Assembly: GCA_001898625.1 (NCBI GenBank)
Contig: MKUP01000028.1
Span: 186,001 to 250,000, forward strand
Source: Burkholderiales bacterium 67-32
Lineage (GTDB): Bacteria; Pseudomonadota; Gammaproteobacteria; Burkholderiales; Burkholderiaceae_B
DNA length: 64,000 bases
Reading direction: 5' to 3'
Shown: positions 13,765-53,152 of the stretch, in pieces
Layout of the letters: the number at the start of each line of letters is the position of its first letter
How positions within the stretch are numbered: position 1 is the first letter of the stretch
Notes under the pieces: model-generated
Seen by the model: the letters and a program-made list of their open reading frames with translations, nothing else
The model's database searches: none
What the model was told of the DNA's origin: nothing
Program-made: the position numbers and the translations under genes

Positions 13765-13846
13765 CCCCCCCTACGCGCTTACGCGCGCCCCCCAGGGGGC
13801 GATGCGGGTGGACCGGCGGAGCCGGATCCACCGCATCCTGGGTCTG
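13765..13846 (+). repeat. Dispersed palindromic repeat, copy A (stem type 1)
   Basis: An 82-bp element with three parts: a C-run followed by CTACGCGCTTACGCGCG, then CCCCCCAGGGGGC, then a long imperfect stem from GATGCGGGTGGACC to GGATCCACCGCATC, ending CTGGGTCTG. It starts directly after the stop codon of the MBL-fold gene and points the same way. Six more copies occur in the window. Confidence 0.9.
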
Positions 13847-13924
13847 CGGGGTTGTCTTTGTGCGGGGTGCCGGGTTCTTGCGCGATGTCGGTGGGGTGAA
13901 TGTTGTGCGGAATCGGCATTTGTC

Positions 13925-13953
13925 TTGATTTGGTCATTGATGCGCTGTATAAA
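13925..13953 (+). promoter_or_regulatory. Sigma-70-type promoter of the HNH gene
   Basis: TTGATT (13925-13930) and TATAAA (13948-13953) are separated by 17 bases, 46 bp before the GTG start of the HNH gene, within an AT-rich stretch. The match to the consensus is good for this GC-rich genome. Confidence 0.7.
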
Positions 13954-13998
13954 AAACCAGTGAAAGATAGCGATAGGCAATCCATTTAGGAGAAAACT

Positions 13999-14574
13999 GT
14001 GGCTCATCTGGTTCTCGCGCTCGATGTCGCCGGCACGCCGGTGCATTGGGTCGACATCGAAAAAGCCATCTGCCTGCACGTGGCGGGAAGGGTGGCGTGG
14101 GAACTGGGGGATACCACCGTCACCTATCGCGGGGGCACGAACCGGCTGACCGGGCTCGTCTCCACCGTCAGCACCGCCAGCATCATCGCCGTGCGCGGCC
14201 GCGAGTTCCGCGGCGACCGCTCCGCCTCCATCAGCATCAGCCGCGAGCGCCTGTTCTCGCGCGACATGCATGTCTGCGCCTACTGCGGCGGCTGTTTCCC
14301 CGAGTTCGAACTGACCATCGAGCACGTCCGCCCCGAGTCGCGCGGCGGCGCCAATACCTGGGAAAACGTGGTCACGGCCTGCCGCTCGTGCAATCAGCGC
14401 AAGGGCAACCGGACTCCCGAGCAGGCCGGCATGCCGCTGCTCTACCTGCCGTACCGGCCCAACCGCTGGGAAGGCATGATCCTGCGCAATCGCCGCATCC
14501 TGGCGGACCAGATGGAATTCCTGCTGGCCGGCGTACCCATTACAAGTAGGTTAGGACCCCCCCCTACGCGCTGA
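13999..14574 (+). CDS. HNH endonuclease domain protein
   Basis: A 191-residue protein with a zinc-supported HNH nuclease domain in its second half: CAYCGG (C93, C96), LTIEHVRPESRGG (H109), WENVV (N123) and CRSCNQRKGN (C128, C131). The N-terminal 85 residues are not a recognised domain. The start is GTG 13999 with TAGGAGAA just upstream. It has its own good promoter, and its upstream DNA is clearly richer in A and T than the surroundings. The stop codon and last residues (GPPPTR) lie inside copy B of the dispersed repeat, so the gene lies between two direct copies. Relatives occur as single genes in many betaproteobacteria; the role (repair, defence or remnant) is unknown. Confidence 0.88.
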   Translation: MAHLVLALDVAGTPVHWVDIEKAICLHVAGRVAWELGDTTVTYRGGTNRLTGLVSTVSTASIIAVRGREFRGDRSASISISRERLFSRDMHVCAYCGGCFPEFELTIEHVRPESRGGANTWENVVTACRSCNQRKGNRTPEQAGMPLLYLPYRPNRWEGMILRNRRILADQMEFLLAGVPITSRLGPPPTR

Positions 14575-14718
14575 CGCGCGCCCAGAATGGTGTGCCCCCA
14601 GCCGCTACGCGGCAGCCCCCCAAGGGGGCCGGGACCCGCCTTGGGGCGGCCCGGCGCCGGGTCCCGGGGGGCGATGCGGGTAGACCGGCAAAGCCGGATC
14701 CACCGCATCCTGGGTCTG
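14557..14718 (+). repeat. Dispersed palindromic repeat, copy B (interrupted, type 1)
   Basis: The 5' arm (C-run, CTACGCGCTGACGCGCGCCC) and the 3' stem (GATGCGGGTAGACC to GGATCCACCGCATC) match the other copies. About 80 bp of additional GC-rich palindromic DNA (near 14584-14665) separates them, including CAGCCGCTACGCGGCAG and CCCCCCAAGGGGGC. The first 18 bases are translated as the end of the HNH protein and supply its stop codon. Confidence 0.85.
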
Positions 14719-14734
14719 GGTGGGGGCTGTTATG

Positions 14735-14762
14735 CTTGAAAAAGGTGCACGCGGCCTTATCT
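14735..14762 (+). promoter_or_regulatory. Heat-shock (sigma-32) promoter of htpG
   Basis: CTTGAAA (14735-14741), a 13-base spacer and CCTTATCT (14755-14762) match the sigma-32 pattern CTTGAAA-N(11-16)-CCCCATNT in 13 of 14 defined positions at best reading of the -35 and 5-6 of 7 in the -10. It lies about 100 bp before the htpG start, where a heat-shock promoter is expected. Confidence 0.75.
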
Positions 14763-14781
14763 AGGCCGCGTGAGCTTTTTG
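14748..14781 (+). terminator. Hairpin overlapping the htpG promoter
   Basis: CACGCGGCC and GGCCGCGTG form a perfect 9-bp stem with a 7-base loop, followed by AGC and five T. It can end transcription arriving from the HNH gene. The left arm and loop also contain the -10 element of the heat-shock promoter, so it might instead bind a regulator or fold at the 5' end of the htpG mRNA. Confidence 0.6.
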
Positions 14782-14864
14782 CTCCAATCGAACAACTTCC
14801 TTTCGTCAACCGCCATGCTTGGCGCACCTGAACCATGCGCGCCGGGATGGGTTTTGTTATTGCC

Positions 14865-16769
14865 ATGAGTCAGACCAACACCTCCGAAACCCTGGGCTTC
14901 CAGACCGAAGTCAAGCAGTTGCTGCACCTGATGATCCACTCGCTGTACAGCAACAAGGAAATCTTCCTGCGCGAGCTGGTCTCCAATGCGTCCGATGCCT
15001 GCGACAAGCTGCGTTTCGAGGCCATCGACCGGCCGGAGCTGCTGGAGGGCGATGGCGAGACGGCCATCCGCGTGGGCTTCGACAAGGCCGCGCGGACCAT
15101 CACGATTTCCGACAACGGCATAGGCATGACGCGGGACGAGGCCATTGCCAACCTGGGCACCATCGCCCGCTCGGGCACGCGCGAGTTCTTCCAGCAACTG
15201 ACCGGCGACAAGCAGAAGGATGCGCAACTGATCGGCCAGTTCGGGGTGGGGTTCTATTCGTCGTTCATCGTCGCGCAGAAGGTCACCGTCATCAGCCGCC
15301 GCGCGGGCCTGCCGGCGGACCAGGCGATACGCTGGGAATCGGCCGGCGACGGCGAGTTCACCATCTCGGCGGCCGAGAAGGCCGGGCGCGGCACGGACAT
15401 CATCCTGACGCTGCGCGAGGACGAGGACGACTTCCTGTCGTCGTGGAAACTGCGCGATATCCTGCGGCGCTATTCGGACCACATCTCCGTTCCCATCCTG
15501 ATGAAGAAAGAGGAGTGGGACGCCGAGAAATCCGAGCAGGTCACGCGCGACGAGGACGAGACTGTCAACCAGGCCAGCGCCCTGTGGACGCGCAGCAAGT
15601 CCGAGATCACCGACGAGCAGTACGCCGAGTTCTACAAGCACGTGGCGCACGACTTCGAGGAACCGCTGGCCTGGAGCCACAACCGGGTCGAAGGCCGCAG
15701 CGAATACACGCAACTGCTGTACGTGCCCCGGCGCGCGCCGTTCGACATGTGGGACCGCAACAAGAAGCACGGAGTCAAGCTGTACGTGAAGCGCGTCTTC
15801 ATCATGGACGACGCCGAGCAACTGCTGCCCGGCTACCTGCGCTTCGTGCGCGGCGTCATCGACTCGGCCGACCTGCCGCTGAACGTGTCGCGCGAGATCC
15901 TGCAGGAAAGCCGCGACGTGCGCGCCATCCGCGAAGGCAGTGCCAAGCGCGTGCTGAGCCTGCTGGAAGACCTGGCGGAGAATCGCAAGGACGACTACGC
16001 GACGTTCTGGACCGAGTTCGGCCAGGTGTTGAAGGAAGGCGTGGGCGAGGACGCGGCCAACCTGGAACGCATCCTGAAGCTGCTGCGCTTCGCGTCCACG
16101 CAGGACGGAACCCCCGCGCAGACGGTGTCGCTGGCCGACTACGTGGCCCGCATGAAGGAAGGCCAGGACAAGATCTACTACGTCACGGCCGAGACCTTCG
16201 CCGCGGCCAGCAGCAGCCCGCACCTGGAAATCTTCCGCAAGAAGGGCATCGAGGTCCTGCTGCTGACCGACCGCGTCGATGAATGGATGCTGTCCTTCGT
16301 CAACGAGTTCGACGGCAAGCCGCTGATCTCCATCGCCAAGGGCGGCCTGGACCTGGGCGCGCTGGCCGACGAGGAAGAGAAGAAGCAGCAGGACGAGGTC
16401 TCGGAAGAACTGAAGCCGGTGGTCGAGCGGCTGAAGGCCGCGCTGGGCGAGGCGGTCAAGGACGTGCGCGTGACCTTCCGCCTGGTCGATTCCCCCGCCT
16501 GCGTGGTGGTGGACCAGCAGGACATGAGCCAGCACCTGCAACGCCTGCTCAAGGCGGCCGGACAGGCCGCGCCCGAGTCGCGCCCCATCCTGGAGATCAA
16601 CCCGGGCCATCCGCTGATCGCGCGCGTGCGGCAGGCCAGCGACGCCGACTTCGGACCCTGGGCCCGGCTGCTGTTGGACCAGGCCCTGCTGGCCGAGGGC
16701 GCGGCGCTGGAGGATCCGGCCGCGTTCGTGCGCAGCATGAACAACCTGTTGCTGAGCCAGGCCTCTTGA
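14865..16769 (+). CDS. htpG: Molecular chaperone HtpG (Hsp90)
   Basis: The 634-residue cytoplasmic Hsp90 chaperone. The GHKL ATPase domain shows [29 protein letters not shown] and [14 protein letters not shown]; the middle domain has [15 protein letters not shown] and the C-terminal dimerisation domain follows. The length equals that of other betaproteobacterial HtpG. ATG 14865 gives [16 protein letters not shown], preferred over the open-frame start at 14835. It is controlled by a sigma-32-like promoter at 14735-14762. The last bases overlap a possible TTG start of the next gene. Confidence 0.98.
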
Positions 16770-17581
16770 ACCGCCGGGCGCAACAGTCCGGGCCGGACCG
16801 GCGGCGGGCCGCCGGTCCCAGCGAGCTCGACGAGCCAACGTTCTCGGAAGAACAGGGCGTTCGCTACCTGCATTTCGGCAGCCCCTGGATCCAGGGCGCG
16901 ATGCGGATACGCAGCCCGTTCACGCTGGAGCTGGAGTACACGCGCCAGATGATGGCGTGGCTGCTGTTTCTCGATCCGCCCGAGGCCGGCGGCGAGCAGG
17001 CCATCGGCACCTTGGGGCTGGGCGCGGGATCCCTGACGCGCTTCTGCCTGAAGCACACCGACAGCCTGGTGCATGCGGTGGAATGGAATCCCAGCGTGAC
17101 CGCCGCCTGCCGCGCCTACTTCCGCCTGCCGGCCGACAACGAACGTTTCATGGTGACCCATGACGACGCGGGCGCGTGGGTGGAGGACATCGCCAACCGC
17201 GGCAGTTGCCGCGCCTTGATGGTGGACTTGTACGACCATGCCGCGCGCGGCCCGGTGCGCGATTCCGTGGAGTTCTATCGCGGTTGCCGGCGGGTGGTCA
17301 GCGCCAATGCCAGCCAGGCCGGCATTGTGGTCGTCAACCTGTTCGGCGCGCACGACAGCTACGAACACAACCACCGCAACCTGGACGAGGCGTTCGAGGG
17401 GCGCGTGGCGGTCCTGCCGGAAATCGAGGAAGGAAACCGGGTGGCGATCGCCCTGGCCGGCCCGGCCTTGCGCATCGACGCGCAGGCGCTGCTGGCCCGT
17501 GCCGACGAGGTCGAGCACCGCTACGGCCTGCCGGCGCGCAAATGGGCACGTTCGCTGGTACCGGAGCTGGCGCGGTTGTGA
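16766..17581 (+). CDS. Spermidine-synthase-like methyltransferase-fold protein
   Basis: A 271-residue protein resembling the spermidine synthase superfamily. The Rossmann-like core shows [13 protein letters not shown] (nucleotide loop) and [19 protein letters not shown], then [12 protein letters not shown]. The polyamine synthase active-site residues are not clearly conserved and no speD partner is adjacent, so true spermidine synthesis is doubtful. TTG 16766 overlaps the htpG stop (TTGA) and is proposed as a coupled start; no better start or ribosome site is seen before the conserved part. Its stop overlaps the GTG start of the glycosylase gene, so the two are coupled. Confidence 0.75.
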
Positions 17582-18087
17582 GCGCCGCGGCGCCGCCCCA
17601 GCTCAGCGGTTTTCCTCCGGTCCTGGCGCCCGACGCCAGGACACTGCTGCTGGGCAGTTTCCCGGGCGTGGCTTCGCTGGACATGGGCCAGTACTACGCC
17701 CATCCGCGCAACCAGTTCTGGCGCCTGCTGGGCGCCTGCCTGGAGATCGAGGCACTGCACCTGATGCCCTACGAGGAACGCCTGCGCGTCGCCGTGCGGC
17801 ACCGCGTGGGCATCTGGGACGTCGTCGCCCGTTGCAGGCGCCAGGGCAGTCTCGATGCCGCCGTGACCGAAGCCGAGGCCAATCCGCTCGCCGCCTACCT
17901 GAAGGAGCATGCGCCCCGGCTCGAATGCATAGGTTTCAACGGCGGCCTGTCCTGGAAGCTGGGCCATCACCTGGCCGACTACGGCTACCGCGTGTTCCGG
18001 CTGCCTTCTTCGTCGCCGGCTGCCGCGGCGCATAGCTTCGAGCAGAAGCTGGAGCAATGGCGGCCCCTGTTCGCATGTCGGTCGTGA
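17578..18087 (+). CDS. DNA-deoxyinosine glycosylase (UDG superfamily, family 6-like)
   Basis: A 169-residue uracil-DNA-glycosylase-fold enzyme of the hypoxanthine-DNA glycosylase group, which removes deaminated adenine from DNA. Motif 1 reads LLLGSFPGVASLDMGQYYAH, followed by PRNQFWRLLG, whose Asn is the proposed catalytic residue; the second motif is LPSSSPA. The GTG start at 17578 forms a GTGA overlap with the upstream stop. The last 152 bases are antisense to the end of the convergent LysR gene, an unusually long overlap; PSSSPA lies in the shared part, so the glycosylase end is real. Confidence 0.85.
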   Translation: MSAAAPPQLSGFPPVLAPDARTLLLGSFPGVASLDMGQYYAHPRNQFWRLLGACLEIEALHLMPYEERLRVAVRHRVGIWDVVARCRRQGSLDAAVTEAEANPLAAYLKEHAPRLECIGFNGGLSWKLGHHLADYGYRVFRLPSSSPAAAAHSFEQKLEQWRPLFACRS

Positions 18088-19015
18088 TCTCCTGCTGCAA
18101 CAGGTCGTCCGTCAGGTGGCGGATCTCCTGGATCAGGGCCTTGCTGGCGGTCGACAGCATGGTGTCGCGCCGGTAGGCGATGCCTATCATGTGCGTGCTC
18201 AGCAGCTTCCTGCCCACCGCCGGCTGGAGTGGCAGCTCCACGATGTTCCCGGTATGTTTCTCCAGGCGTGCGGAGTCGTAGCGGGCCAGGCCGATGCAAT
18301 CGCTGGCCACCAGCGTCGAGCGGAAGAAATAGAAGGAATCGGTGCGGATCACGCTGTTGGCGAAGGGCGTGCCCTGCGCGCGCATCATCTGCCTGAGCGT
18401 GACTTCCAACTGCGAGCATTCCGACAGCACCAGCCAGGGGTAGTCGGCCAGGTGGGTGCCGGTGCCGTCGAAGGTTTCCAGTACCGGATGGTCGGCCCGC
18501 ACGAACAGCGCGGTGCGGTCGGGGAAGAGGGGTTCGGACACCAGCTCGTCGGCGTATTCGTCGTCCTCGATGCCGACGATGACGAAGTCCAGGTCGCCGC
18601 GCAGCAGCGGGCCCAGCATGCTGCTGCGATGGCCGAACCGATAGTTCACCGTCAGCCGCCGCGCGCGCTGCGTCAGGTTCAAGGTGGCCTTGGGCAGGAT
18701 CTGGTTCTGCAGCAGGCCGGGCACCACGCCCACGTTGACCTCGCCCATCGAGACGTCGCGCAGCGCGCGTGCTTCGTTTTCCAGCTTGCGGAACTCGGCG
18801 TCGACCAGCTTGGCGCGGGTATAGATGGTTTCGCCGAAGGAGGTCAGGCTCACGCCGCGCGCGTTGCGGGTGAACAGCTCCACACCCAGGGCCTCTTCCA
18901 GGTCTTGCAGGTCCTTGGTCAGCGACGGTTGCGAGACGTTCAGGTGGGTGGCCGCCTTGTTGATGCTGCCGAGTTCGGCGATGGCCAGGAAGCGTTTGAG
19001 GGTGCGCAGGTTCAT
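17936..19015 (-). CDS. LysR-family transcriptional regulator
   Basis: A 359-residue LysR regulator. The N-terminal HTH (about residues 3-60) reads LKRFLAIAELGSINKAATHL and VSQPSLTKDLQDLEEALGV; the effector domain follows. It is about 50 residues longer than usual. The extra C-terminal tail, rich in Arg, Pro and Ala, lies opposite the end of the glycosylase gene and looks like read-through into non-family sequence. It is divergent from the M24/Bug/dioxygenase operon and very likely controls it. An ATATC-N9-GATAT dyad is located just before its start. Confidence 0.92.
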   Translation of the reverse strand: MNLRTLKRFLAIAELGSINKAATHLNVSQPSLTKDLQDLEEALGVELFTRNARGVSLTSFGETIYTRAKLVDAEFRKLENEARALRDVSMGEVNVGVVPGLLQNQILPKATLNLTQRARRLTVNYRFGHRSSMLGPLLRGDLDFVIVGIEDDEYADELVSEPLFPDRTALFVRADHPVLETFDGTGTHLADYPWLVLSECSQLEVTLRQMMRAQGTPFANSVIRTDSFYFFRSTLVASDCIGLARYDSARLEKHTGNIVELPLQPAVGRKLLSTHMIGIAYRRDTMLSTASKALIQEIRHLTDDLLQQEITTDMRTGAAIAPASARSYAPRQPATKKAAGTRGSRSRPGDGPASRTGRR

Positions 19016-19024
19016 GGTGCCAGC

Positions 19025-20287: not shown

Positions 20288-20313
20288 TTCGGTATTCACA
20301 GAAGGATTCGTTT

Positions 20314-21387: not shown

Positions 21388-21446
21388 CGCGCGGCCCCGG
21401 ACAAACACGGCGCATGGACGCGCCGATACACAAGGAGACAACACTC

Positions 21447-22415
21447 ATGTCCAAGCACATCGTGCGGCGGCTGCTGGCGGCCGCATCGCTGGCCCTGCCC
21501 TGTGCCGCGATGGCGGCCGGCTATCCCGACCGGGTGATCAAGGTGGTCGTGCCGGTGCCGGCCGGCGGCGCGGCCGATACCCTGGCCCGCCTGGCCGGCG
21601 AGGGGATACAGAAGAAATGGGGCCAGCCTGTGGTGGTGGAGAACCGCGCCGGCGCCAACGGCAACATCGGCGGCGAGGCGGTCTATCGCGCGGAGCCCGA
21701 CGGCTACACCTTCCTGGTGTCGCCGCCCACGGCGATCGCGATCAACCAGAGCTTCTACAAGAAGCTCGCCTACGACCCGAACCGCTTCGTGCCGGTGTCC
21801 ATCATCGCCGCCAACCCCAACGTGCTGCTGGTCAATCCCAAGGTGCCGGCGAAGACGCTGAAGGAACTGATCGCCTATGCCAAGGCCCATCCGGGCAAGC
21901 TCAACTTCGCCTCGGGCGGCACCGGCTCCACGCCGCACCTGGCGGGCGAGCTGCTGAAGATGACGGCCGGCATCGACATGGTCCACATTCCCTACAAGGG
22001 GGGCCCGCCCGCCTATGCCGACCTGATCGCCGGACAGGTCGAAGTGATGTTCCAGGGCCTGGCCACCGCCTTGCCGCAGATCCGCGAAGGCAAGCTGCGC
22101 GTGCTGGCCATCGGCAGCGAAAAGCGCCATCCGGCCCTGCCGGACGTGCCCACGCTGAACGAGACCATGCCCGGCTTCATCTCGGTGTCGTGGACCGGCA
22201 TGGTGGCGCCGCCGGGCACGCCGGCCGACATCGTTGCCAAGGTCTCGGCGGCGATACGCGAGGAACTGATGGTCAATGGCGCAGGCAAGGACATCAAGGG
22301 CCTGGATGCGCGCGACCTGATCGCCAGCACCCCGGCCGAGGCCGACCGTTTCATCAAGGAAGAAGTGGCCCGCTGGGGCAAGGTGATTCATTCGACCGGC
22401 ATCAGCATCGACTGA
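21447..22415 (+). CDS. Bug-family tripartite tricarboxylate transporter receptor
   Basis: A 322-residue periplasmic receptor of the Bug/TctC family. A signal peptide (about residues 1-24, ending CAAMAAGYP) is followed by KVVVPVPAGGAADTLAR, VENRAGANGNIGGE and HIPYKGGPPAYADLIAGQ. ATG 21447 has AAGGAGA about 10 bases upstream and gives a standard signal peptide; the open frame starts 33 bases earlier. It is the third gene of the LysR-divergent operon and probably captures the operon's substrate, which may be a nitrogen compound given the creatinase-like and dioxygenase neighbours. Confidence 0.95.
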   Translation: MSKHIVRRLLAAASLALPCAAMAAGYPDRVIKVVVPVPAGGAADTLARLAGEGIQKKWGQPVVVENRAGANGNIGGEAVYRAEPDGYTFLVSPPTAIAINQSFYKKLAYDPNRFVPVSIIAANPNVLLVNPKVPAKTLKELIAYAKAHPGKLNFASGGTGSTPHLAGELLKMTAGIDMVHIPYKGGPPAYADLIAGQVEVMFQGLATALPQIREGKLRVLAIGSEKRHPALPDVPTLNETMPGFISVSWTGMVAPPGTPADIVAKVSAAIREELMVNGAGKDIKGLDARDLIASTPAEADRFIKEEVARWGKVIHSTGISID

Positions 22416-38645: not shown

Positions 38646-38892
38646 GGGGTGCGGCTAAGAGACCCGCAGCGTCGGACGATCATGGCGTTGGGTGGCGACA
38701 GGTCGGGCCGGGCAAGGCTGCGCAGGCAGAAAAGGAACGCGGAGCGCGGCAGGTACCACCGGGAGTTGCCCCGATGTAAACCCCTGTCCGCTGCATGGGA
38801 ATACCAATCATCGTAAAATTATAGCTTTCAGGCGGTCCCGGCTGGTTTTTTTGCCGCGAAAGCCCGCGTCCATCCACTTTTCGGTCCATCCC

Positions 38893-39942
38893 ATGTCCGC
38901 ACAACAACCCAGCGCTTCCTCTCTAACCTACCGCGACGCGGGGGTCGACATCGACGCCGGCGATGCCCTGGTCGAGCGCATCAAGCCCCTTGCCAAGCGC
39001 ACCATGCGCGAAGGAGTGCTGGCCGGCATTGGCGGATTCGGGGCCTTGTTCGAGGTGCCCAAGAAGTACCGCGAGCCCGTGCTGGTGTCGGGCACCGACG
39101 GCGTGGGCACCAAGCTGCGCCTGGCGTTCTCGTGGAACAAGCACGACACCGTGGGCATCGACCTGGTGGCCATGAGCGTGAACGACATCCTGGTGCAGGG
39201 CGCCGAGCCGCTGTTCTTCCTGGACTACTTCGCCTGCGGCCGCCTGTCGGTGGACACCGCCGCCACGGTCGTCGGCGGCATCGCGCAGGGCTGCGAACTG
39301 GCCGGCTGCGCGCTGATCGGCGGCGAAACCGCCGAGATGCCCGGCATGTACCCCGACGGCGAATACGACCTGGCCGGCTTCGCCGTCGGCGCGGTCGAGA
39401 AGTCGCAGGCCATCGACGGTAGCTGCATCCAGCCCGGCGACGCCGTGCTGGGCCTGGCCTCCAGCGGCGCGCATTCCAACGGCTATTCGCTGGTGCGCAA
39501 GATCATCGAACGCGCCGGCGCCACGCCGGACCAGGACTTTCACGGCCAACCCCTGCGCGACGTCGTCATGGCGCCCACGCGCATCTACGTCAAACAGGTG
39601 CTGGCGGCCATCGCCAAGCACGAGATCAAGGGCCTGGCCCACATCACCGGCGGCGGCCTGCTGGACAACGTGCCGCGCATCCTGCGCCCCGGCCTGGCCG
39701 CGCGCCTGCACCGCGATGCGTGGAAGCTGCCCGAGCTGTTCACGTGGCTGCAACGCGAAGGCCAGGTGGCCGACACCGAAATGCACCGCGTCTTCAACTG
39801 CGGCATAGGCATGGTGATCGTGGTCTCCGCCGACCAGGCCGACGCCGTTGCCGCCACCCTGCGCGAACAGGGCGAAACCGTCTACCGCCTGGGAGAAATC
39901 GTCGAGCAACAACCCGGCGCCGCCCAAACAGAAGTGATCTGA
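38893..39942 (+). CDS. purM: Phosphoribosylformylglycinamidine cyclo-ligase
   Basis: The 349-residue purine biosynthesis enzyme AIR synthetase. Signature segments are [54 protein letters not shown] and [19 protein letters not shown] 38893 gives the expected N-terminus; the open frame extends upstream to 38692 without family similarity. It stands alone, divergent from hda, and a reverse-oriented palindromic repeat starts two bases after its stop. Confidence 0.97.
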
Positions 39943-39943
39943 T

Positions 39944-40050
39944 AGACCCGGGATGCGGTGGATCCGGCTCCGCCGGTCCACCCGCATCGCCCCCTTGAGG
40001 GGGCGCCCGAAGGGCGTAGGGGGTGGGCTTCCCTTCAGCGCGTAGGGGGG
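39944..40050 (-). repeat. Dispersed palindromic repeat, copy C (type 1, extended 5' arm)
   Basis: On the minus strand the element starts with a C-run and CTACGCGCTGA, repeats a second CCCCCTACGC after about 25 bases (AAGGGAAGCCCAC between), then continues with GCCCCCTCAAGGGGGC and the GATGCGG...CCGCATC stem. Its 5' end encodes the last residues and stop codon of hisC. The 3' end reaches almost to the purM stop. Confidence 0.9.
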
Positions 40051-41099
40051 AGATCTTTTAGTGCATTGAGCAGCGCATCGCATTCGGCATCGGTGCCGAC
40101 CGTGATGCGCAGGTACTGGTCGATGCGCGGCTGCTTGAAATGCCGTACCAGCACCTTGCGTTCGCGCAGCGCCTTCAGCAGGGCCGCGCCGTCGTGCCCG
40201 GGGTGGCGCGCGAAGACGAAGTTGGCGGCCGACGGCAGCACCTCGAAACCCAGTTCTTCGAGCTTGGCGGTCAAGCGCACGCGCGAAGCGATGACGGCCT
40301 GGCGGGTACGGTCGAAATAGGCGGTGTCTTCCATGGCCGCGGTCGCGCCGGCCATGGCCAGGCGGTCGAGCGGATAGGAGTTGAAGCTGCTCTTGACCCG
40401 TTCCAGCCCCTCGATCAGGTGCGGCTGGCCGATGGCGTAGCCGACCCGCAGGCCCGCCAGCGAGCGCGCCTTGGACAGCGTCTGCACCACCAGCAGGTTG
40501 GGGTGGGCCGCCACCAGCGAGACCGCCGACGTGCCGCCGAAATCGACGTAGGCTTCGTCCACCACGACGACCGAGTCCGGATTCGCCTTCAGCAGCGCCT
40601 CGATGTCCTCCAGGGGCAGCAGGCGACCGGTGGGGGCGTTCGGATTGGGGAAGATGATCCCGCCGTTCGGCTGGCCGTAGTCCTGCACGCGCAGGGACAG
40701 GTCGTCGGCCAGCGGCACGGTGCGGTAGTCGATACCGTACAGGCCGCAGTAGACCGGGTAGAAGCTGTAGGTCACGTCCGGGAACAGCAGCGGCAGGTCG
40801 TGCTTGAGCAGGCCGACGAACACGTGGGCCAGCACCTCGTCCGAACTGTTGCCGACGAAGACGTGGTCGGCCTGCACGCCATGGAAGCGTGCCACCGCCG
40901 CCTTGAACACACTGGCGTCGGGGTCGGGATAGCGCCGCAGCGTCTCGTTGGTGGCCTGGCGTATGGCTTCCAGGGCACGCGGCGAGGGCGGATACGGGTT
41001 CTCGTTCGTGTTGAGTTTGACGAGTCCGTCTATCTGCGGTTGTTCGCCGGGGACATAGGGCGTCAGTTGTTGAGTGACGCGGCTCCAGTACCTGTTCAT
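40035..41099 (-). CDS. hisC: Histidinol-phosphate aminotransferase
   Basis: A 354-residue PLP-dependent class I/II aminotransferase of histidine synthesis. [20 protein letters not shown] marks the HisC family; [34 protein letters not shown] and the PLP lysine in [15 protein letters not shown] follow. The last residues (LPPTR) and stop codon come from a palindromic repeat, so the C-terminus has been remodelled by that element. ATG 41099 is chosen from the family N-terminus. It lies outside a his operon, downstream of miaA in the same direction. Confidence 0.95.
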
Positions 41100-41212
41100 G
41101 AATCTGTCGTCGAAAGCGCAAAGCGCGGCAACGGGCCGCGCACGCATCCAGCATAGCAGGGCCGGCGCCCCGGCGCACGCCGCGGCAGGCGGGGCGTGGC
41201 GCGGATGCGCCG

Positions 41213-44888: not shown

Positions 44889-44901
44889 AAACGCAAAAAA
44901 G

Positions 44902-44929
44902 AAAACGGCCTCACACGAGGCCGTTTTTT
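44902..44929 (+). terminator. Rho-independent terminator after the dedA-type gene
   Basis: AAACGGCCTC and GAGGCCGTTT form a perfect 10-bp stem with a 4-base loop, followed by four more T (seven in a row). It ends 41 bp after the stop codon. The A-rich left flank makes it usable in the other direction too. Confidence 0.9.
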
Positions 44930-44985
44930 TGTAAAGAACCCACCCCTCCACCAGCCCAGTGCCTCGCACTGAGACGCCCCCCCAA

Positions 44986-45064
44986 AGACCCAGGGCACAG
45001 CGGATCCGGCTCCGCCGGTCCGCCAGTGCCGCCCCCTGGGGGGCGCGCGAAGCGCGTAGGGGGG
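44986..45064 (-). repeat. Dispersed palindromic repeat, copy D (stem type 2)
   Basis: On the minus strand it reads CCCCCCTACGCGCTTCGCGCG, CCCCCCAGGGGGC, then a stem from GGCACTGGCGGACC to GGATCCGCTGTGCC and CTGGGTCT. The stem arms differ from type 1 at paired positions, so base pairing is kept. It begins 5 bases after the amiC stop. Confidence 0.9.
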
Positions 45065-45069
45065 ATCCC

Positions 45070-46503
45070 CTACGTCAGTTTGTTCTTCGACAGTGGCGGG
45101 TTCTTCGCGAAATAGCGCTGGATGCCCTGCATGATGGCGGTCGCCATGCTGCTCTGGTAGGACACGTCCGACAGGCGCTTTTCCTCTTCCGGATTGCTGA
45201 TGAACGCGGTCTCGACCAGGATGGACGGGATGTCGGGAGCCTTCAGCACGGCGAAGCCGGCCTGTTCGACCCGCGGCTTGTGCAGGCGGTTGATGTTGGA
45301 CAGTTCGTCCAGCACCGCGCGGCCCAACTTGAGCGAATCGTTGATCTGGGCCGTGGTCGACAGGTCCAGCAGCACCCGGGCGATCTGCTTGTCGTGCGAG
45401 CCGATGTTGACGCCACCGATCAGGTCCGAAGCGTTTTCCTTGGCAGCCAGCCAGCGCGCCGCGCTGCTGCTGGCCCCGCGCTCGGACAGCGCGAATACCG
45501 ACGAACCGCGCGCATCCGGTTTGATCCAGGCGTCGGCGTGCACCGACACGAACAGGTCGGCCTGCACGCGCCGCGCCTTGGCGACGCGCACGTGCAGCGG
45601 CACGAAGTAGTCGCCGTCGCGGGTCAGCATGGCGCGCATGTTGGGCTGCTGGTCGATCATGGCCTTGAGCCCGCGCGCGATCCGCAGCACGACGTCCTTT
45701 TCCCGCGTGCCGCCGCGTCCGATGGCTCCCGGGTCCTCGCCGCCATGGCCGGGATCCAGGGCCACGGTGATCATGCGCGCGACCGCCGGCGCGGGATCGG
45801 AGCGGCGGCGGATGGCGGGCGCCTCGGGCGCCGCCTCCGGGATGGGCGCGCCGTTGGCGCTCGCGCCGGTGCCTGGCGCGGGGATGTTGTCACGCTCGGC
45901 CTGCAGGCTGTCCAGTATCTGCGCCATCGGGTCGCTGCTGCCCTTGTTCGCCAGCGCGACCAGGGGATCCTGGGCCACCTTGGGATACAGATCGAGCACG
46001 AGGCGGTGCCTGTATTCACCCACGGGCTTGAGGCTGAAGACCTGGGGGATGGTCTCCTGCTTCAGGTCCAGCACCAGCCGCACCACGTTGGGCCGGTTCT
46101 GCCCGACGCGCACGCTGGCGATGTAGGGATCGTCCGGCCGGACCTTGGACACCAGGTCGCGCAGCGCGGCGTTCATCTCCACGCCTTCGATATCCAGGAC
46201 CACGCGGTCCGGATTGTCGAGCACGAAGTGTTCGGTCTTGAGTTCGGCGTCCAGCTCCAGCGTGAGCCGGGTGTAGTCGGGGGCGGGCCACAGGCGTACC
46301 GCGACCAGCTCGGCGGCGCGGGTGGCCGTCGGGACCAGGGGCACCACCAGGGTGGCGGCCAGGCCGGCCACCAGCCGGCGGCGGGAGATGCCGCGCGGCG
46401 CGAGCACTCCCTGGGCCTGGGCATAGGACAGGGCCGGTGTGCCGGCCGGAAGGTCGGGATCGGGTTCTAGCTCGTCGCGTCGGGAAAAAGTGTGTTCAGC
46501 CAT
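45070..46503 (-). CDS. amiC: N-acetylmuramoyl-L-alanine amidase, Tat-exported
   Basis: A 477-residue cell-separation amidase of the AmiC type that trims peptidoglycan at the septum in the periplasm. A twin-arginine signal SRRRLVAGLAATLVVP (R41, R42) follows a 40-residue cytoplasmic leader. An AMIN domain (about residues 65-175), a Pro/Ala linker and an Amidase_3 catalytic domain come next. Zinc residues are H253 (LDPGHGGEDPGA), E268 (TREKD), H322 (VSVHADAW) and Glu in LVETAFISN. It overlaps the end of tsaE by 37 bp, the usual tsaE-amiC pairing. Confidence 0.95.
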   Translation of the reverse strand: MAEHTFSRRDELEPDPDLPAGTPALSYAQAQGVLAPRGISRRRLVAGLAATLVVPLVPTATRAAELVAVRLWPAPDYTRLTLELDAELKTEHFVLDNPDRVVLDIEGVEMNAALRDLVSKVRPDDPYIASVRVGQNRPNVVRLVLDLKQETIPQVFSLKPVGEYRHRLVLDLYPKVAQDPLVALANKGSSDPMAQILDSLQAERDNIPAPGTGASANGAPIPEAAPEAPAIRRRSDPAPAVARMITVALDPGHGGEDPGAIGRGGTREKDVVLRIARGLKAMIDQQPNMRAMLTRDGDYFVPLHVRVAKARRVQADLFVSVHADAWIKPDARGSSVFALSERGASSSAARWLAAKENASDLIGGVNIGSHDKQIARVLLDLSTTAQINDSLKLGRAVLDELSNINRLHKPRVEQAGFAVLKAPDIPSILVETAFISNPEEEKRLSDVSYQSSMATAIMQGIQRYFAKNPPLSKNKLT

Positions 46504-46973: not shown

Positions 46974-46989
46974 GGGCTACCATGACAGT

Positions 46990-48126: not shown

Positions 48127-48273
48127 GTTTGCTATTCTTTTGACCAAGCCCGCTTGAGCCATGAGGTCAAGACAGTACTAGAAGGGCGCAGCATCGAGAC
48201 CGGCGCACAGACGCCCGCGCATCGTTGCGGCGCGGGCCGATTCCGTGAAGGACCATCCACAAGAGGAGTACGC

Positions 48274-49263
48274 ATGAAAGCAGCAAGAATCGCCGCTTCG
48301 CTGGCGGGGCTGACCGTTTCCGCCACCATGCTAGCCGTGCCCGGCTTGGCCGCCGCCCAGTCGTCCTATCCCAACAAACCCGTACGTGTCATCGTGCCGT
48401 TCGCGCCGGGAGGCTCGACGGACATCATCGCCCGGCTCGTGGGCGAGCGCATGGGCCGCGAACTCGGCCAGCCCTTCGTGATCGAGAACCGCGGTGGCGG
48501 CGGCGGGGCCATCGGCGCCGGCGAAGCCGCGCGTGCCGCGCCGGACGGCTACACCCTGAGCATCGCCACGGTATCCACGATGGCGATCAACCCCGCGTGC
48601 AACCCCAAGCTGGGCTACGATCCGCTCAAGGATTTCCAGCCGGTCACGAACTTCGCCCACACGGCCAACGTGCTGGCCGTCAACCCCAAGGTTCCGGCCA
48701 ACGACTTCAAGTCCTTCCTGGAACTGGCCAAGAAGGAACCCGGCAAGTTCTCGTTCGCCACCTCGGGGACTTGCAGTATCAACCACTTCCTGGGTGAGCT
48801 CTTCCAACTGGGTACGGGCGCCAAGATCGTCCACATTCCCTACCGCGGTTCGGGACCGGCCATCGCCGACGTGGTCGGCGGCCAGGTGCAGATGCTGTTC
48901 GACAACCTGCCTTCGTCCATGCCCAACATCCAGGCCGGCAAGCTCAAGGCCCTGGCGGTCGCGTGGGACAAGCGGGTGGACGGCCTGCCCGACGTGCCCA
49001 CGTTCAAGGAGTTGGGCCTGCCGCTGATGAACGATCCGGCCTGGTACGGCCTGCTGGCTCCCGCCGGTACGCCCACCGACATCATCAACAAGCTGCGCGA
49101 CGCCGCGGTGAAGGTGCTGTCCGATCCGCAGGTGAAGGACACCTTGTCCAAGCAGGGCGCCGCCGCCGTCGGCAACACGCCCGCCGAATTCCGCACCGAG
49201 ATCGAGAAGGAGCTGAACAAGGCGAAGGACGTGGTGAAGAAGCAGAACATCAAATTGGAGTAG
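48274..49263 (+). CDS. Bug-family tripartite tricarboxylate transporter receptor
   Basis: A 329-residue periplasmic receptor with a signal peptide (about residues 1-29, ending PGLAAAQSS). PVRVIVPFAPGGSTDIIAR, VIENRGGGGGAIGAGEA and HIPYRGSGPAIADVVGGQ are family signatures. AGAGGAG is 9 bases before ATG 48274; the frame is open to 48154 without a signal-like sequence. It stands alone, with no enzyme gene next to it, as is common for the many Bug receptors of Bordetella-type genomes. Confidence 0.95.
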   Translation: MKAARIAASLAGLTVSATMLAVPGLAAAQSSYPNKPVRVIVPFAPGGSTDIIARLVGERMGRELGQPFVIENRGGGGGAIGAGEAARAAPDGYTLSIATVSTMAINPACNPKLGYDPLKDFQPVTNFAHTANVLAVNPKVPANDFKSFLELAKKEPGKFSFATSGTCSINHFLGELFQLGTGAKIVHIPYRGSGPAIADVVGGQVQMLFDNLPSSMPNIQAGKLKALAVAWDKRVDGLPDVPTFKELGLPLMNDPAWYGLLAPAGTPTDIINKLRDAAVKVLSDPQVKDTLSKQGAAAVGNTPAEFRTEIEKELNKAKDVVKKQNIKLE

Positions 49264-49273
49264 GTGGAGTAGG

Positions 49274-49352
49274 CCCCCCCCTACGCGCTTCGCGCGCCCC
49301 CCAGGGGGCGATGCGGGTGGACCGGCAGAGCCGGATCCACCGCATCCTGGGG
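49274..49352 (+). repeat. Dispersed palindromic repeat, copy E (type 1)
   Basis: C-run with CTACGCGCTTCGCGCG, CCCCCCAGGGGGC, then GATGCGGGTGGACC to GGATCCACCGCATC. It starts 10 bases after the stop of the Bug gene in the same direction. Confidence 0.9.
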
Positions 49353-49405
49353 TACAACCAGGCTGGCGGAGGACGGGTGTTCTTGCCTCTTGTCAGCACA
49401 AATGA

Positions 49406-49439
49406 GAACGGCCTTGCATCAGATGATGCAAGGCCGTTC
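49406..49439. terminator. Perfect 15-bp hairpin between convergent genes
   Basis: GAACGGCCTTGCATC and GATGCAAGGCCGTTC are exact complements with a 4-base loop. There is no T-run after the stem. The GGCC-containing arms resemble the terminator at 44902. A bidirectional terminator is likely from position. Confidence 0.6.
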
Positions 49440-49458
49440 CCGTATTCGCGGTCGTCCC

Positions 49459-49598
49459 AGACCCAGGGCACAGCGGATCCGGCTTTGCCGGTCCGCCAGT
49501 GCCGCCCCCTGGGGGGCGCCCGAAGGGCGTAGGGGGTGGGTTTCCCTTCCGGTCCGCCAGTGCCGCCCCCTGGGGGGCGCCCGAAGGGCGTAGGGGGG
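49459..49598 (-). repeat. Dispersed palindromic repeat, copy F (type 2, with 61-bp duplication)
   Basis: On the minus strand it starts one base after the DUF2214 stop. The 5' half (C-run, CTACGCCCTTCGGGCG, CCCCCCAGGGGGC, GGCACTGGCGGACCGG) occurs twice with a period of 61 bp (49549-49597 and 49488-49548); the 3' half of the stem is present once. Confidence 0.88.
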
Positions 49599-49599
49599 A

Positions 49600-50046
49600 T
49601 CAAATACCTCTGGCCATGGCGGCGGCCAGGATGGGGAGGGCTAGCCAGCCCAGGAATTGGAGGCGGATGGCCTTGCGGACTTTGCCGATGTCGGTGGGCG
49701 ATGGCTGGAAGGCGGGGTCGTTGCGGGCTTGTTGGCGCCAGCGCAGGTAGTTGATGGTGGGCAGGGCCGAGATGGCGCCCACGGCCAGGAAGACTGCGAT
49801 CTTGGCCCAGAAGACGGGGTTGTCCAGGTAGAAGGCCGCGCCCTTGGGGCCCCAGGCGACGCGGGCTGCGCCGATGGCCAGGATCAGCATGGCCAGGCTG
49901 CCGTACCAGGCGTCGGTCTTGCCGAGCAGAGCCAAGGGAATGGTCGAACGGGCCGGGTTGAGGAGCGTCCATTGCATGGCCAGTGCCGCGGCCATGCCCA
50001 GGAAACAGAGGTGGTGCATCCACGCGAGAATGAAGTCGGCGATCAT
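49600..50046 (-). CDS. DUF2214 family membrane protein
   Basis: A 148-residue inner-membrane protein with four hydrophobic segments. The N-terminus MIADFILAWMHHLCFLGM with paired histidines, and the later KTDAWYGSLAMLILAIGAARV and FWAKIAVFLAVGAISALPT, match the DUF2214 family. ATG 50046 gives the family start; a GTG at 50079 with GGAAG upstream is an alternative. The function is unknown; histidines in TM1 suggest heme or metal binding, which is inferred. It is divergent from a TetR-type regulator, which may control it. Confidence 0.8.
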   Translation of the reverse strand: MIADFILAWMHHLCFLGMAAALAMQWTLLNPARSTIPLALLGKTDAWYGSLAMLILAIGAARVAWGPKGAAFYLDNPVFWAKIAVFLAVGAISALPTINYLRWRQQARNDPAFQPSPTDIGKVRKAIRLQFLGWLALPILAAAMARGI

Positions 50047-50170
50047 GGTCTTGACGCTGTCTAGATAAAGAAACGCCACGATAGCTTCCGATGTTTACAC
50101 TGTCAAGAAAAAATCCGATCATGCCAGCTGCCAATTTGACGGCGTAAAGATTTCTTTGCGAAGATGGCGC

Positions 50171-50887
50171 ATGCGAGCTGATCTTCCCTCGGGCGGCAAG
50201 CGCCCCCGTCGCACCGTTGCCCGCCAGGCGGGTTCCTATCACCACGGCGATTTGCGCCAGGCGTTGCTCGATGCGGCGCGATCCCTGCTCGACGAGCGCG
50301 GCCTCGAAGGTTTCACGCTGCGCGAATGCGCGCGCCGCGCCGGGGTCTCCCATGCGGCGCCCGCGCATCATTTCGGCGATGCCGCCGGGCTGCTGACGGC
50401 CTTTGCCGCCGCGGGTTTCCGGCAGTTGTCAGCCATGATGCAGGCCTATCGCGCCAAGGCGACCGCCTCGCCGCAGGCCCAGTTGCGGGCCGTGGGGTTG
50501 GCCTATATCGATTTCGCCATCGGCCATCGCGCCCAGTTCCAGTTGATGTTCCGCTACGACCGCTTGTCGCCGGGCGATGCTGGATTGGAGCAGGCGGGCA
50601 GCGAGGCCGCCGGTCATTTGTCCACCACCTTGGCCGGCGCGCTGGCTGAACGGGGGTTGGACGGGCAGGGCCAGGATTTCGAGCGCCGGCTGCTGCTGGC
50701 CTGGTCGGCCGTCCACGGTTTCGCGACCCTGCTGCTCGAAGGCCGGCTCGACGGCTGGCGCGGCCGGCAGTCGGTGCCCGCGTTCGCGTCCCGGACCGGC
50801 GACGACGTGCTGGCTGTCCTGGAGGTGGCCCTGCTCGCCCCGCCCGGCGCCAGCGCGGGGCGGCGGCGCCGGGGGCGCGCGGCATGA
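50171..50887 (+). CDS. TetR-family transcriptional regulator
   Basis: A 238-residue TetR regulator. The HTH domain (about residues 16-65) has SYHHGDLRQALLDAARSLL and CARRAGVSHAAPAHHFGD; a ligand-binding domain of the C-terminal TetR_C type follows. ATG 50171 is chosen over TTG 50156. The stop overlaps the xerD start (ATGA), so xerD is translationally coupled to a regulator, an unusual association. It is divergent from the DUF2214 gene, the likely target. Confidence 0.9.
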   Translation: MRADLPSGGKRPRRTVARQAGSYHHGDLRQALLDAARSLLDERGLEGFTLRECARRAGVSHAAPAHHFGDAAGLLTAFAAAGFRQLSAMMQAYRAKATASPQAQLRAVGLAYIDFAIGHRAQFQLMFRYDRLSPGDAGLEQAGSEAAGHLSTTLAGALAERGLDGQGQDFERRLLLAWSAVHGFATLLLEGRLDGWRGRQSVPAFASRTGDDVLAVLEVALLAPPGASAGRRRRGRAA

Positions 50888-51828
50888 GCGCGGCGCGGGA
50901 TGGCCGGACCCGGTCCAGGCAGGGGGTGGTGCGCCCGGGCGACGATCCCGGCATCGCGGCCTTCCTCGAAGCGATGTGGCTGGAGGACGGGCTGTCCGAC
51001 AACACCCTGCGCGCCTATCGCCAGGACTTGTCGGCCTTCGACGCCTGGCTGAAAGAAAAGCGTGCCTCGGCCCTGGACCGCGCCCAGGCGCACGACATCG
51101 AGGCGTGGTTCGCGGCGGTCCATCACCAGAGCAAGGCCACTACCGCCAACCGGCGGCTGGCGACGCTGCGCCGCTATTTCCAATGGGCCCTGCGCCTGCA
51201 CCGCGTGCAGGCCGATCCCTGCCTGACGCTGCGTGCCGCCAAGCAGCCGCCCCGCCTACCCAAGACGCTGTCCGAGGCCCAGGTCGAGGCCCTGCTGGGC
51301 GCGCCGGACCTCGACACCGACCTGGGGCTGCGCGACCGCGCCATGCTGGAAACGCTGTACGCCACGGGCCTGCGCGTGTCCGAGCTGGTCGACCTGAAGT
51401 CCCTGGACGTCGGCTTGAACGAAGGCGTGGTGCGCGTGGTCATGGGCAAGGGCGGCAAGGACCGGCTCGTGCCGCTGGGCGCGGAGGCGGCGCACTGGAT
51501 CACGCGCTACCTGGAGGAGTCGCGTCCCGCGCTGCTGGGCGGCAAGGTCAGCGACGCGCTGTTCGTGACCGCCCGCGCCACCGCCATGACCCGGCAGAGC
51601 TTCTGGCTCATCGTCAAGAAATACGCGCTGCGGGCGGGCATACGCGCGGCCCTGTCGCCGCACGTGCTGCGGCACGCCTTCGCCACGCACCTGCTCAATC
51701 ATGGCGCCGACCTGAGAGTGGTGCAGATGCTGCTGGGGCATGCCGACATCTCCACCACGCAGATCTATACGCACATCGCGCGCGAGCGCCTTAAACTGCT
51801 GCACGCGCGGCATCACCCGCGAGGTTGA
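50884..51828 (+). CDS. xerD: Site-specific tyrosine recombinase XerD
   Basis: A 314-residue tyrosine recombinase that resolves chromosome dimers at dif with XerC. A SAM-like N-terminal domain (about residues 23-110) is followed by the catalytic domain with R164 (TGLRVSEL), K189 (MGKGGKDR), H260 and R263 (SPHVLRHAFATH), H286 (LGHADIS) and Y295 (IYTHIAR). All catalytic residues are present. The spacing and LLNHGADLRVVQMLLGH favour XerD over XerC or a phage integrase. It overlaps the TetR stop and is followed by ybaK. Confidence 0.95.
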   Translation: MSAARDGRTRSRQGVVRPGDDPGIAAFLEAMWLEDGLSDNTLRAYRQDLSAFDAWLKEKRASALDRAQAHDIEAWFAAVHHQSKATTANRRLATLRRYFQWALRLHRVQADPCLTLRAAKQPPRLPKTLSEAQVEALLGAPDLDTDLGLRDRAMLETLYATGLRVSELVDLKSLDVGLNEGVVRVVMGKGGKDRLVPLGAEAAHWITRYLEESRPALLGGKVSDALFVTARATAMTRQSFWLIVKKYALRAGIRAALSPHVLRHAFATHLLNHGADLRVVQMLLGHADISTTQIYTHIARERLKLLHARHHPRG

Positions 51829-51842
51829 GGCCGCCCTTCATC

Positions 51843-52328
51843 ATGAGCAAAGCCAGACACGTTTCAGAGACTCCCGCCACGCAATTCCTGCGCAAACACG
51901 GCGTTGCCTTCACCGAACACGCCTACGACTACGTCGAGCACGGCGGCACCTCGGAATCGGCGCGCCAACTGGGCGAGGACGAGCATGCTGTGGTCAAGAC
52001 CCTGATCATGGAGGACGAGGCCGCGCGGCCGCTGGTCATCCTGATGCATGGGGACAAGGAGGTATCGACCAAGAACCTGGCGCGGCAGATCGGCGTCAAG
52101 AAGGTGGTGCCCTGCAAACCGGAGGTGGCCCAGCGGCATTCGGGCTACCAAGTGGGCGGCACCTCGCCCTTCGGGACCCGCAAGGCCATGCCGGTGTACG
52201 TGGAAGGCAGTGTGCTCGACCTGCCGCGCATCCTCATCAACGGCGGCCGCCGAGGGTATCTCGTGGGCATGGCCCCTGGCGAACTGGTCCGACTGCTGAA
52301 GGCGGTTCCCGTCGCCGCCGCGCTGTGA
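51843..52328 (+). CDS. ybaK: YbaK/EbsC-type aminoacyl-tRNA deacylase
   Basis: A 161-residue YbaK-domain protein that hydrolyses mischarged tRNA, in this subgroup Cys-tRNA(Pro). TPATQFLRKHGVAFTEHAYDY, VKTLIMEDE, KEVSTKNLARQIGVKKV and VGGTSPFGTRKAMPVYVE are family signatures. ATG 51843 lies 14 bp after xerD; the open frame begins slightly upstream at a weak TTG. It is likely cotranscribed with xerD. Confidence 0.92.
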   Translation: MSKARHVSETPATQFLRKHGVAFTEHAYDYVEHGGTSESARQLGEDEHAVVKTLIMEDEAARPLVILMHGDKEVSTKNLARQIGVKKVVPCKPEVAQRHSGYQVGGTSPFGTRKAMPVYVEGSVLDLPRILINGGRRGYLVGMAPGELVRLLKAVPVAAAL

Positions 52329-52454
52329 CGGACGCGGGCGCGGCGGATTTCGTGCGTTTGCAGCGGGACAGTGTCTTGCCCAACCGGTAGAATCGCCGCC
52401 TGTCATGCCATCGTCACCGTGACGTGGCCACATAGGCCCAAGGGTTCCCCATTC

Positions 52455-53087
52455 ATGATCACCGTCGCCGCCGCCGTCATCGCCTATCTGATCGGTTCCA
52501 TCTCGTTCGCCGTGGTCGTGAGCCGGGTGATGGGGCTCGACGATCCGCGCACCTACGGCTCGGGCAATCCGGGCGCCACCAACGTGCTGCGTTCGGGCAG
52601 CAAGGCCGCCGCGATCCTGACGCTGGTCGGCGATGCCTTCAAGGGCTGGGTGGCGGTATGGCTGGCCCAGGTCTATGCGTATCGGCTCGGCTTGGGCGAA
52701 ACCACGATCGCGGTGGTGGCGCTGGCGGTATTCCTGGGCCACCTGTACCCGGTGTTTTTCCGGTTCAAGGGCGGCAAGGGCGTGGCAACCGCACTGGGCG
52801 TGCTGGTGGGCCTGCAGCCCTGGCTGGGCGTGGCCACGCTGGCGACCTGGCTGATCGTGGCGTTGTTCTTCCGCTATTCGTCGCTGGCCGCCATCGTCGC
52901 GGCCGTTTTCGCACCCGTCTACTACGTGTTCGGCCACGGCGTGGCCTGGACCGCCGACTCCCGGATCGGCACCGCCATCGGCCTGATGGCGCTGATGCTG
53001 CTCTACCGCCATCGGCAGAATATCTCCAAGCTGATGGCCGGCAAGGAAAGCAAGCTCGGGAAGAGGAGTCCCCCCCCTACGCGCTGA
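52455..53087 (+). CDS. plsY: Acyl-phosphate:glycerol-3-phosphate acyltransferase PlsY
   Basis: A 210-residue inner-membrane enzyme that makes lysophosphatidic acid from acyl-phosphate. Motif 1 is [11 protein letters not shown], motif 2 [15 protein letters not shown], and motif 3 [16 protein letters not shown]. About five membrane segments are seen. The last six residues (SPPPTR) and stop codon come from repeat copy G, so the C-terminal end is remodelled. ATG 52455 is the family start. It is convergent with tsaD. Confidence 0.95.
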
Positions 53088-53152
53088 CGCGCGCCCCCCA
53101 GGGGGCGATGCGGGTGGACCGGCGGAGCCGGATCCACCGCATCCTGGGTCTG
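53070..53152 (+). repeat. Dispersed palindromic repeat, copy G (type 1)
   Basis: C-run and CTACGCGCTGACGCGCG, CCCCCCAGGGGGC, stem GATGCGGGTGGACC to GGATCCACCGCATC, then CTGGGTCTGG. The first 18 bases are read as the end of plsY including its TGA stop (53085-53087). Confidence 0.92.

Follow-up and report, generated by a model that had tools for sequence, protein, structure and literature searches.

Many bacteria carry short palindromic repeats of the REP type, and opinion is divided on whether these are selfish DNA or contribute to the working of mRNA ends. We describe here a repeat of this kind, a unit of ~85 nt made up of a C-run and three hairpins, which occurs in a 64-kb stretch of DNA from Burkholderiales bacterium 67-32 (assembly GCA_001898625.1, contig MKUP01000028.1, positions 186,001 to 250,000; hereafter the window) and is mostly placed at the 3' ends of genes with the C-run towards the stop codon. 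Its position and orientation relative to stop codons are sharp enough to be tested, and filled and empty sites can be compared within one genus. The XerC protein of the source genome (6.66 Mb) shares 98% identity with its counterpart in Pigmentiphaga kullae K24 and 97% with the one in Pigmentiphaga sp. NML030171, by which the genome is that of a Pigmentiphaga, a genus of the family Alcaligenaceae.

Related repeat families

The nearest published families are BRE and Bor-1, which match the element in size, taxa and location. According to the section on the repeats in the BRE paper (Hot et al. 2011, PMC3110155), BREs are GC-rich sequences of 75–91 bp, usually intergenic and present in 1–29 copies per genome by the criteria used there; they are found in Bordetella, Polaromonas, Rhodoferax, Delftia and others, form tandem arrays, have neighbouring genes in > > and > < arrangement, are suspected to be mobile and in some cases overlap gene ends by a few bases. 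That section does not deal with distance to stop codons, polarity, composite units or conversion. The element shares with these repeats a size of ~90 bp, the GC-richness, the intergenic location, the occurrence of tandem copies (in genome G015) and the presence in Alcaligenaceae, the likeness in Comamonadaceae being one of layout only; it differs in copy number, with at least 150 copies in the genome analyzed here. Compared by description rather than by BRE sequence, it probably belongs to BRE, as its Pigmentiphaga branch. The Bor-1 stem-loop family of Bordetella, intergenic sequences of 93–117 nt in 128–196 copies, is similar in size, copy number, intergenic site, predicted stem-loop and bacterial family, again by description and not by sequence; the part of the account devoted to Bor-1 contains no analysis of orientation or stop codons (Petrillo et al. 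2008, PMC2267715). A literature search brought up no account of this element's polarity towards stop codons, and its sequence strings matched no paper.

REPs and BIMEs are described, in the passages bearing on their location, as dispersed palindromes that lie 3' of genes, in the spacers of co-directional or convergent pairs, and sometimes provide the stop codon (PMC3733652). Ribosome stalling has been reported for those E. coli REPs that lie within 15 nt of a stop codon (cited in PMC12306157), and the number of such REPs is given in these sources as 446/4,072 or 260/496 (PMC3733652, PMC12306157). The element resembles REPs in its 3'-end sites, in supplying a stop at times, in lying in part within 15 nt of the stop and in forming inverted pairs. 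It differs in having three hairpins in ~85 nt instead of one palindrome of 20–40 bp, in the larger fraction that lies within 15 nt of a stop, and, compared with REPs and REPINs, in that a search of the element-rich Pigmentiphaga genomes gave no RAYT (Y1) transposase. Its outer end is a C-run and not the unpaired GTAG tag of REPs; CTAC stands behind the C-run in Pigmentiphaga, with mostly CGAAG or CGAGG instead in most copies of other genera. Miniature inverted-repeat transposable elements (MITEs) such as Correia/NEMIS, RUP and ERIC are short and non-coding, with palindromic ends, a target duplication and a partner transposase. The composites of ~250–270 nt with inverted arms described below are reminiscent of these general features, whereas single arms predominate and placement is tied to stop codons; by eye no target duplication was recognized, nor was a partner transposase, transposases other than Y1 not having been searched for.

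The repeat unit and its placement at stop codons

The unit, defined from the window copies, consists of the C-run, the three hairpins and a closing CCC/GGG stem. Hairpin 1 is small (GCGC/GCGC or GCCC/GGGC), hairpin 2 is of the C5/G5 type (CCCCCCAGGGGG or CCCCCTCAAGGGGG), and hairpin 3 is long and ends in CCGGC-RRA-GCCGG. Six of the seven window copies were aligned (82–86 nt each, mean column identity 86%) and score 98.8–103.9 bits with a covariance model built from the same six, while the seventh, at 14557, a long form enlarged by an extra ~82-nt module, scores 53.5 bits. RNA folding of the six core copies gave −49 to −53 kcal/mol (z −2.5 to −4.2), and the core pattern CCCCCTACGCG occurred 9 times with at most one mismatch, against 3.0 expected. 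No Rfam family matched the window above its gathering score; positions 49200–49620 gave below-threshold matches only.

The genome-wide covariance-model search proposed in an earlier note on the window, with stop distance and orientation scored for each copy, was carried out and gave a distribution far from random in both respects. The source genome contains at least 150 matches, since all of the 150 candidates that were scored among 9,920 matched, the six of the model included. In total, 167 distinct copies were placed relative to genes, a set that leans to the best-scoring copies; the six weakest rows (25–39 bits) of a 169-row list were left out of the counts. Gene starts and ends were taken from a purpose-written caller trained on these genomes, which missed at least one gene in the window. 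Sense copies lie between co-directional genes in 77 cases, 49 copies lie between convergent genes, 26 are antisense between co-directional genes, 9 lie between divergent genes, three are inside called genes and three at ends. Among the 161 classifiable copies, 126 are thus in sense behind a gene and 35 are antisense; single non-nested copies alone gave 86 sense, 21 antisense and five inside genes or at ends.

In 97 of the 126 sense copies the C-run begins 0–12 nt past the stop codon, and in another 10 the stop lies within hairpin 1. Copies flush with a stop numbered 111 of 160, against 25.2 (standard deviation 3.6) expected for uniform placement and random orientation in the same spacers, and 106 of 153 against 23.5 when the window was left out. 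In 800 kb of tiles chosen blind to matches, and free of the lean towards high scores, 15 of 20 copies were flush against 4.1 expected, one of the 20 being identical to a copy from elsewhere. The polarity relative to transcripts, which the earlier note had called strict, is accordingly strong and far beyond chance, while its strictness fails on the 35 antisense copies. Convergent spacers are enriched (10 of 20 tile copies, compared with 101 of 769 gene pairs in the tiles and the window), and the stop codon is TAG in 48 of 97 genes flush with an element against 181 of 776 in the background.

A stop located within hairpin 1 means that the C-run is translated, and the proteins concerned end in a proline run, mostly followed by Thr-Arg. 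Such C-termini were seen at two window genes (stops at 53085–53087 and 14572–14574) and at loci L016, L065, L071, L072, L077, L099, L110, L120 and L124. Since an insertion can alter the stop of the host gene and the codons just before it, the repeat would also edit protein C-termini.

Filled, empty and rewritten sites in related species

At a flanking coding identity of ~96%, sites of the source genome were filled in 21 of 21 cases in the Pigmentiphaga genome G002, one of them by a variant that the pattern had missed, and in 17 of 17 cases in a second one, G007. In the reverse direction, 45 of 46 matches at G002 and G007 sites were filled in the compared part of the source genome, a count in which a locus in two overlapping pieces can appear twice. 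The same test in more distant species gave 3/3 filled sites for L144, 0/2 for P. humi and 0/3 for P. litoralis; site 44984 proved filled in P. humi in a separate test. Fast hopping, suggested by a first comparison, was dropped once the sites proved shared. Two apparent insertions in L144, near window positions 57356 and 59814, were also discarded, the first stretch not being the element and the second adjoining a synteny break.

The sites are fixed, and their hairpin content is rewritten between close species. Stem 3, compared at 33 typed site pairs at 96% coding identity, was of another type in 16, and hairpins 1 and 2 change type at shared sites independently of each other; nested copies were left out of the site-sharing and stem-type counts. 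Four further site pairs gave no model match; two of these are filled by variants, and L111:1697 has a reversed copy in both relatives.

Empty sites were found in a 400-kb stretch of P. litoralis, for which 112 copies were offered: all nine comparable gene ends lack the element (two of them poorly aligned at the end), and in most the last codons or the stop are changed relative to the filled ends. Four ends with TAG in the source genome have TGA or TAA in P. litoralis (one poorly aligned); of the other five pairs two share TGA, and the remaining three have TAA/TGA, TGA/TAA and TGA/TAG (source genome first; the last poorly aligned). One clean empty/filled pair, L083 compared with G007 at 98% flank identity, has its junction right behind TAGG. 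The suggestion of the earlier note that the element inserts after or near stop codons is supported by these empty ends, by the changed last codons and stops and by the clean pair.

Occurrence in other genomes

The orientation recurs outside the source genome. In 800 kb of G002 and G007, 47 of 57 copies are in sense, 7 weak rows and the 15 rows of L143–L146 having been left out of a list of 79; the stop-codon letters of minus-strand copies were unreliable in this analysis and were not used. In three other genera, 28 of 30 loci are in sense, 19 of these 28 within 9 nt of the stop, and several of the remaining sense copies stand behind another copy; here the sequence of the element differs while its layout is kept. 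In one of the other genera, direct tandem arrays with copies 87–136 nt apart stand behind one gene (G015 loci L290, L299 and L308). Loci of Polaromonas, Rhodoferax, Ramlibacter and Pseudorhodoferax carry a hairpin of the same kind, in sense in 10 of 12 cases, and one exception looks like another hairpin; this Comamonadaceae scan covered the 60 of 76 loci that were GC-rich enough. R1 matches in the Comamonadaceae loci were weak (best E 1e-5, most >0.001), and the likeness there is one of layout. Within the family, 39 of 200 genomes, representing 7 of 43 genera, gave matches at E ≤1e-5; at E ≤1e-6 there were none in 16 genomes sampled from the order's other families.

Origin and role of the element

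We put at slightly under one half (about 0.48) the probability of the following account as a whole, in which the element is a REP-like repeat, probably BRE, that enters near stop codons with one end leading, is retained and converted, and has a REP-like role in the 3' untranslated region. Copies would enter within a few bases of stop codons with one fixed end in front, at times replacing the last codons and the stop, and insertions that break a gene would be lost unless the element provides a stop. Ectopic conversion between copies could then swap hairpins at fixed sites. Lying behind the stop and, in some of the cases, before a terminator, the element would be transcribed as a very stable 3' untranslated region, where it may act like a REP by blocking 3' exonucleases or disturbing translation termination, and not as a terminator. 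Judged from its position, the element could plausibly affect the mRNA end as REPs do, and a role in mRNA stability or processing, which the earlier note had raised, is possible.

Several observations weigh against this account. Of the 161 copies 35 are antisense, and 14 of these form one half of a tail-to-tail pair. An excess of TAG was also seen ahead of antisense copies (12 of 38, compared with 2–6 in control windows), and TAG could therefore belong to the element or to its target; the bases just upstream of the C-run are likewise C-poor in sense and antisense copies alike, and these shared features imply that some of the pattern is due to the element or its target rather than to stop codons as such. 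The nine empty ends of P. litoralis are not mutually independent, because the model finds no copy in the whole 400-kb stretch, while it has 42 matches elsewhere in that genome. The sharing of sites at 96% identity means that recent insertions are few, which is about equally compatible with functional selection and with slow insertion. A search for an inserting enzyme, which covered Y1 transposases, identified none: PF01797 had no match at E ≤0.001 in the source genome, and in 11 genomes of the genus it had one, a 36-aa stretch in G009 (2 copies), and none in the element-rich genomes, the controls of this search being positive in 5 of 14. A RAYT/REP mechanism was rejected for the genus on this ground, and that the usual mobilizing enzyme was not found in the element-rich genomes adds to the value of the system. 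No transposon-borne autonomous copy was noticed in the regions read, although this was no systematic search and was not extended to transposases other than Y1, and no right-hand junction or target duplication was established, duplications being judged by eye. That a process without Y1 transposase inserts the palindrome at stops in a fixed orientation and rewrites its copies, the family spreading specifically through gene ends in several related genera, is a bolder form of the account which we regard as doubtful.

Selection in place of insertion is somewhat unlikely. The repeat would then land anywhere and be kept where three hairpins behind a stop are of help, through ribosome stalling or protection against 3' exonucleases. 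The almost complete retention of sites at ~96% coding identity would be expected from this, and the 0–12 nt range resembles the 15-nt limit for E. coli REPs in the relevant part of PMC12306157; the enrichment of convergent spacers, the same layout in other genera and the similar one in Comamonadaceae loci also agree with it. However, the antisense strand folds at least as well as the sense strand (−52.5 and −50.2 kcal/mol), with similar stability on both, so that orientation would need another cause, and all nine compared gene ends of P. litoralis do without the element. The covariation in the repeat is real (290 cells changed on both sides, against 99 in shuffles), nearly all Watson–Crick and made up of few hairpin types. 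Wobble pairs show no consistent favour for the sense strand: in the source genome G.U and A.C pairs number 40 and 39 overall, or 3 and 10 when two odd pairs are removed, while other genera lean the opposite way (50 and 13), largely from misaligned or odd columns. Selection on the RNA strand, considered from the covariation, was dropped on these counts, and no conclusion about the strand was drawn. Equal folding of both strands, together with covariation that has no consistent strand bias, makes RNA structure alone insufficient to explain the polarity.

The polarity might also stem from the G-run, an explanation which we consider improbable. A reversed element would put a Shine-Dalgarno-like G tract behind the stop, harming termination or re-initiation, and reversed copies would survive mainly before start codons as ribosome binding sites. 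Indeed, in 20 of 35 antisense copies no more than 25 nt separate the C-run from a start codon, against 9.2 expected, and in 10 of 37 the G-run lies 5–13 nt before the start; yet these starts depend on the purpose-written caller, the 14 arms of tail-to-tail pairs are among the antisense copies, and the flushness of sense copies with the stop is left unexplained. More improbable still is a site acting at the DNA level, such as a cruciform or a site for binding of a protein or gyrase where transcription ends and supercoils meet, for which the nearly perfect Watson–Crick, strand-symmetric hairpins, the tail-to-tail composites of recurring length and the convergent enrichment could be quoted; against it, such a site would need neither a stop distance of at most 12 nt nor one orientation. 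Least of all do we expect the copies to be intrinsic terminators, or bidirectional terminators of convergent genes, in spite of their 3'-end position, strong hairpins and convergent enrichment, since only 6 of the 128 copies that have a gene upstream in sense show the terminator-like pattern (GC hairpin, then U-tract) in the element plus 12 nt. Terminator-like hairpins lie further downstream for 30 of 112 sense copies, which is at least as frequent as behind element-free gene ends (22 of 192), and those in the window lie outside the element arms; this speaks against the termination role listed in the earlier note.

Copies and genes in the window

All seven copies that had been listed in the window (at 13765, 14557, 39944, 44986, 49274, 49459 and 53070) were found there (Table 1).

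Table 1. Copies of the repeat, partial copies and associated hairpins in the window.
Feature	Position	Strand	Context
Full copy	13763..13847	+	C-run directly after TGA of metallo-hydrolase gene 12676-13764 (Pfam Lactamase_B_2)
Long-form copy	14557..14719	+	Hairpin 1 provides TGA (14572-14574) of HNH gene 13999-14574
Extra module, ~82 nt, GC-rich and hairpin-rich	~14584-14666		Inside long-form copy 14557
Full copy	39942..40027	-	Between convergent genes 38692-39942 (+) and 40035-41147 (-), behind partial outer copy
Partial outer copy (C-run and half of hairpin 1)	40031..40050	-	Carries TGA of gene 40035-41147 (-)
Intrinsic-terminator-like hairpin	44902..44927	-	Downstream of 44984 copy; pattern match only
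Full copy, GGCAC-type stem 3	44984..45067	-	5 nt after TAG of amidase gene 45070-46503 (-)
Left arm of 268-nt tail-to-tail composite	49273..49356	+	C-run 10 nt after TAG of TctC gene 48154-49263
Terminator-like hairpin	49404..49441	-	Centre of composite; pattern match only
Right arm of composite	49457..49540	-	In sense with gene 49600-50079 (-), whose stop is ~60 nt away
Partial outer copy	49546..49598	-	One base after stop of gene 49600-50079 (-)
Full copy	53069..53153	+	Hairpin 1 provides TGA (53085-53087) of glycerol-3-phosphate acyltransferase gene 52371-53087

The statement that every copy begins 0–10 bases after, or inside, a stop codon holds for 13765, 44986 and 49274 (0, 5 and 10 nt) and for 14557 and 53070, with their TGA in hairpin 1. 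At 39944 the stop is carried by the partial outer copy in front, and the statement fails for 49459, which begins ~60 nt away from its stop (at 49600); there it is the partial copy at 49546–49598 that is flush. By the gene calls, five copies do lie between convergent genes, and the convergent pairs without a copy either overlap or are separated by short gaps of 4 and 45 nt, as had been noted. An apparent copy-free convergent gap of 354 nt is in fact an open frame that encodes a UDG domain and overlaps the LysR gene opposite. The hairpin at 44902..44927 places the 44984 copy between a stop codon and a terminator-like hairpin, the pattern having been found 5 times in this 8.6-kb region against 4.3 expected.

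Copies occur singly, nested behind partial copies or as tail-to-tail pairs. Of the 23 pairs, 12 are 249–255 nt long with a palindromic centre mostly flanked by CTAG, six are 267–274 nt long with a terminator-like hairpin in the centre, three measure 206–219 nt and two are longer. In the ~250-nt composites (L141:3218-3298, L087:10125-10205 and others) the centre of ~81 nt is a separate palindrome, mostly with CTAG on both sides, and looks as if inserted into a CTAG site. The ~82-nt module of the long form lies between hairpins 1 and 2 and is present or absent at the same point across species (L097, L101 and L087 sites).

Among the other genes of the window, the open frame with the UDG domain (17176-18087, +) and the LysR-type gene (17936-19015, -) overlap by ~150 nt at their 3' ends, and three TctC-type receptor genes were identified by Pfam (2929-3903, 21414-22415 and 48154-49263).

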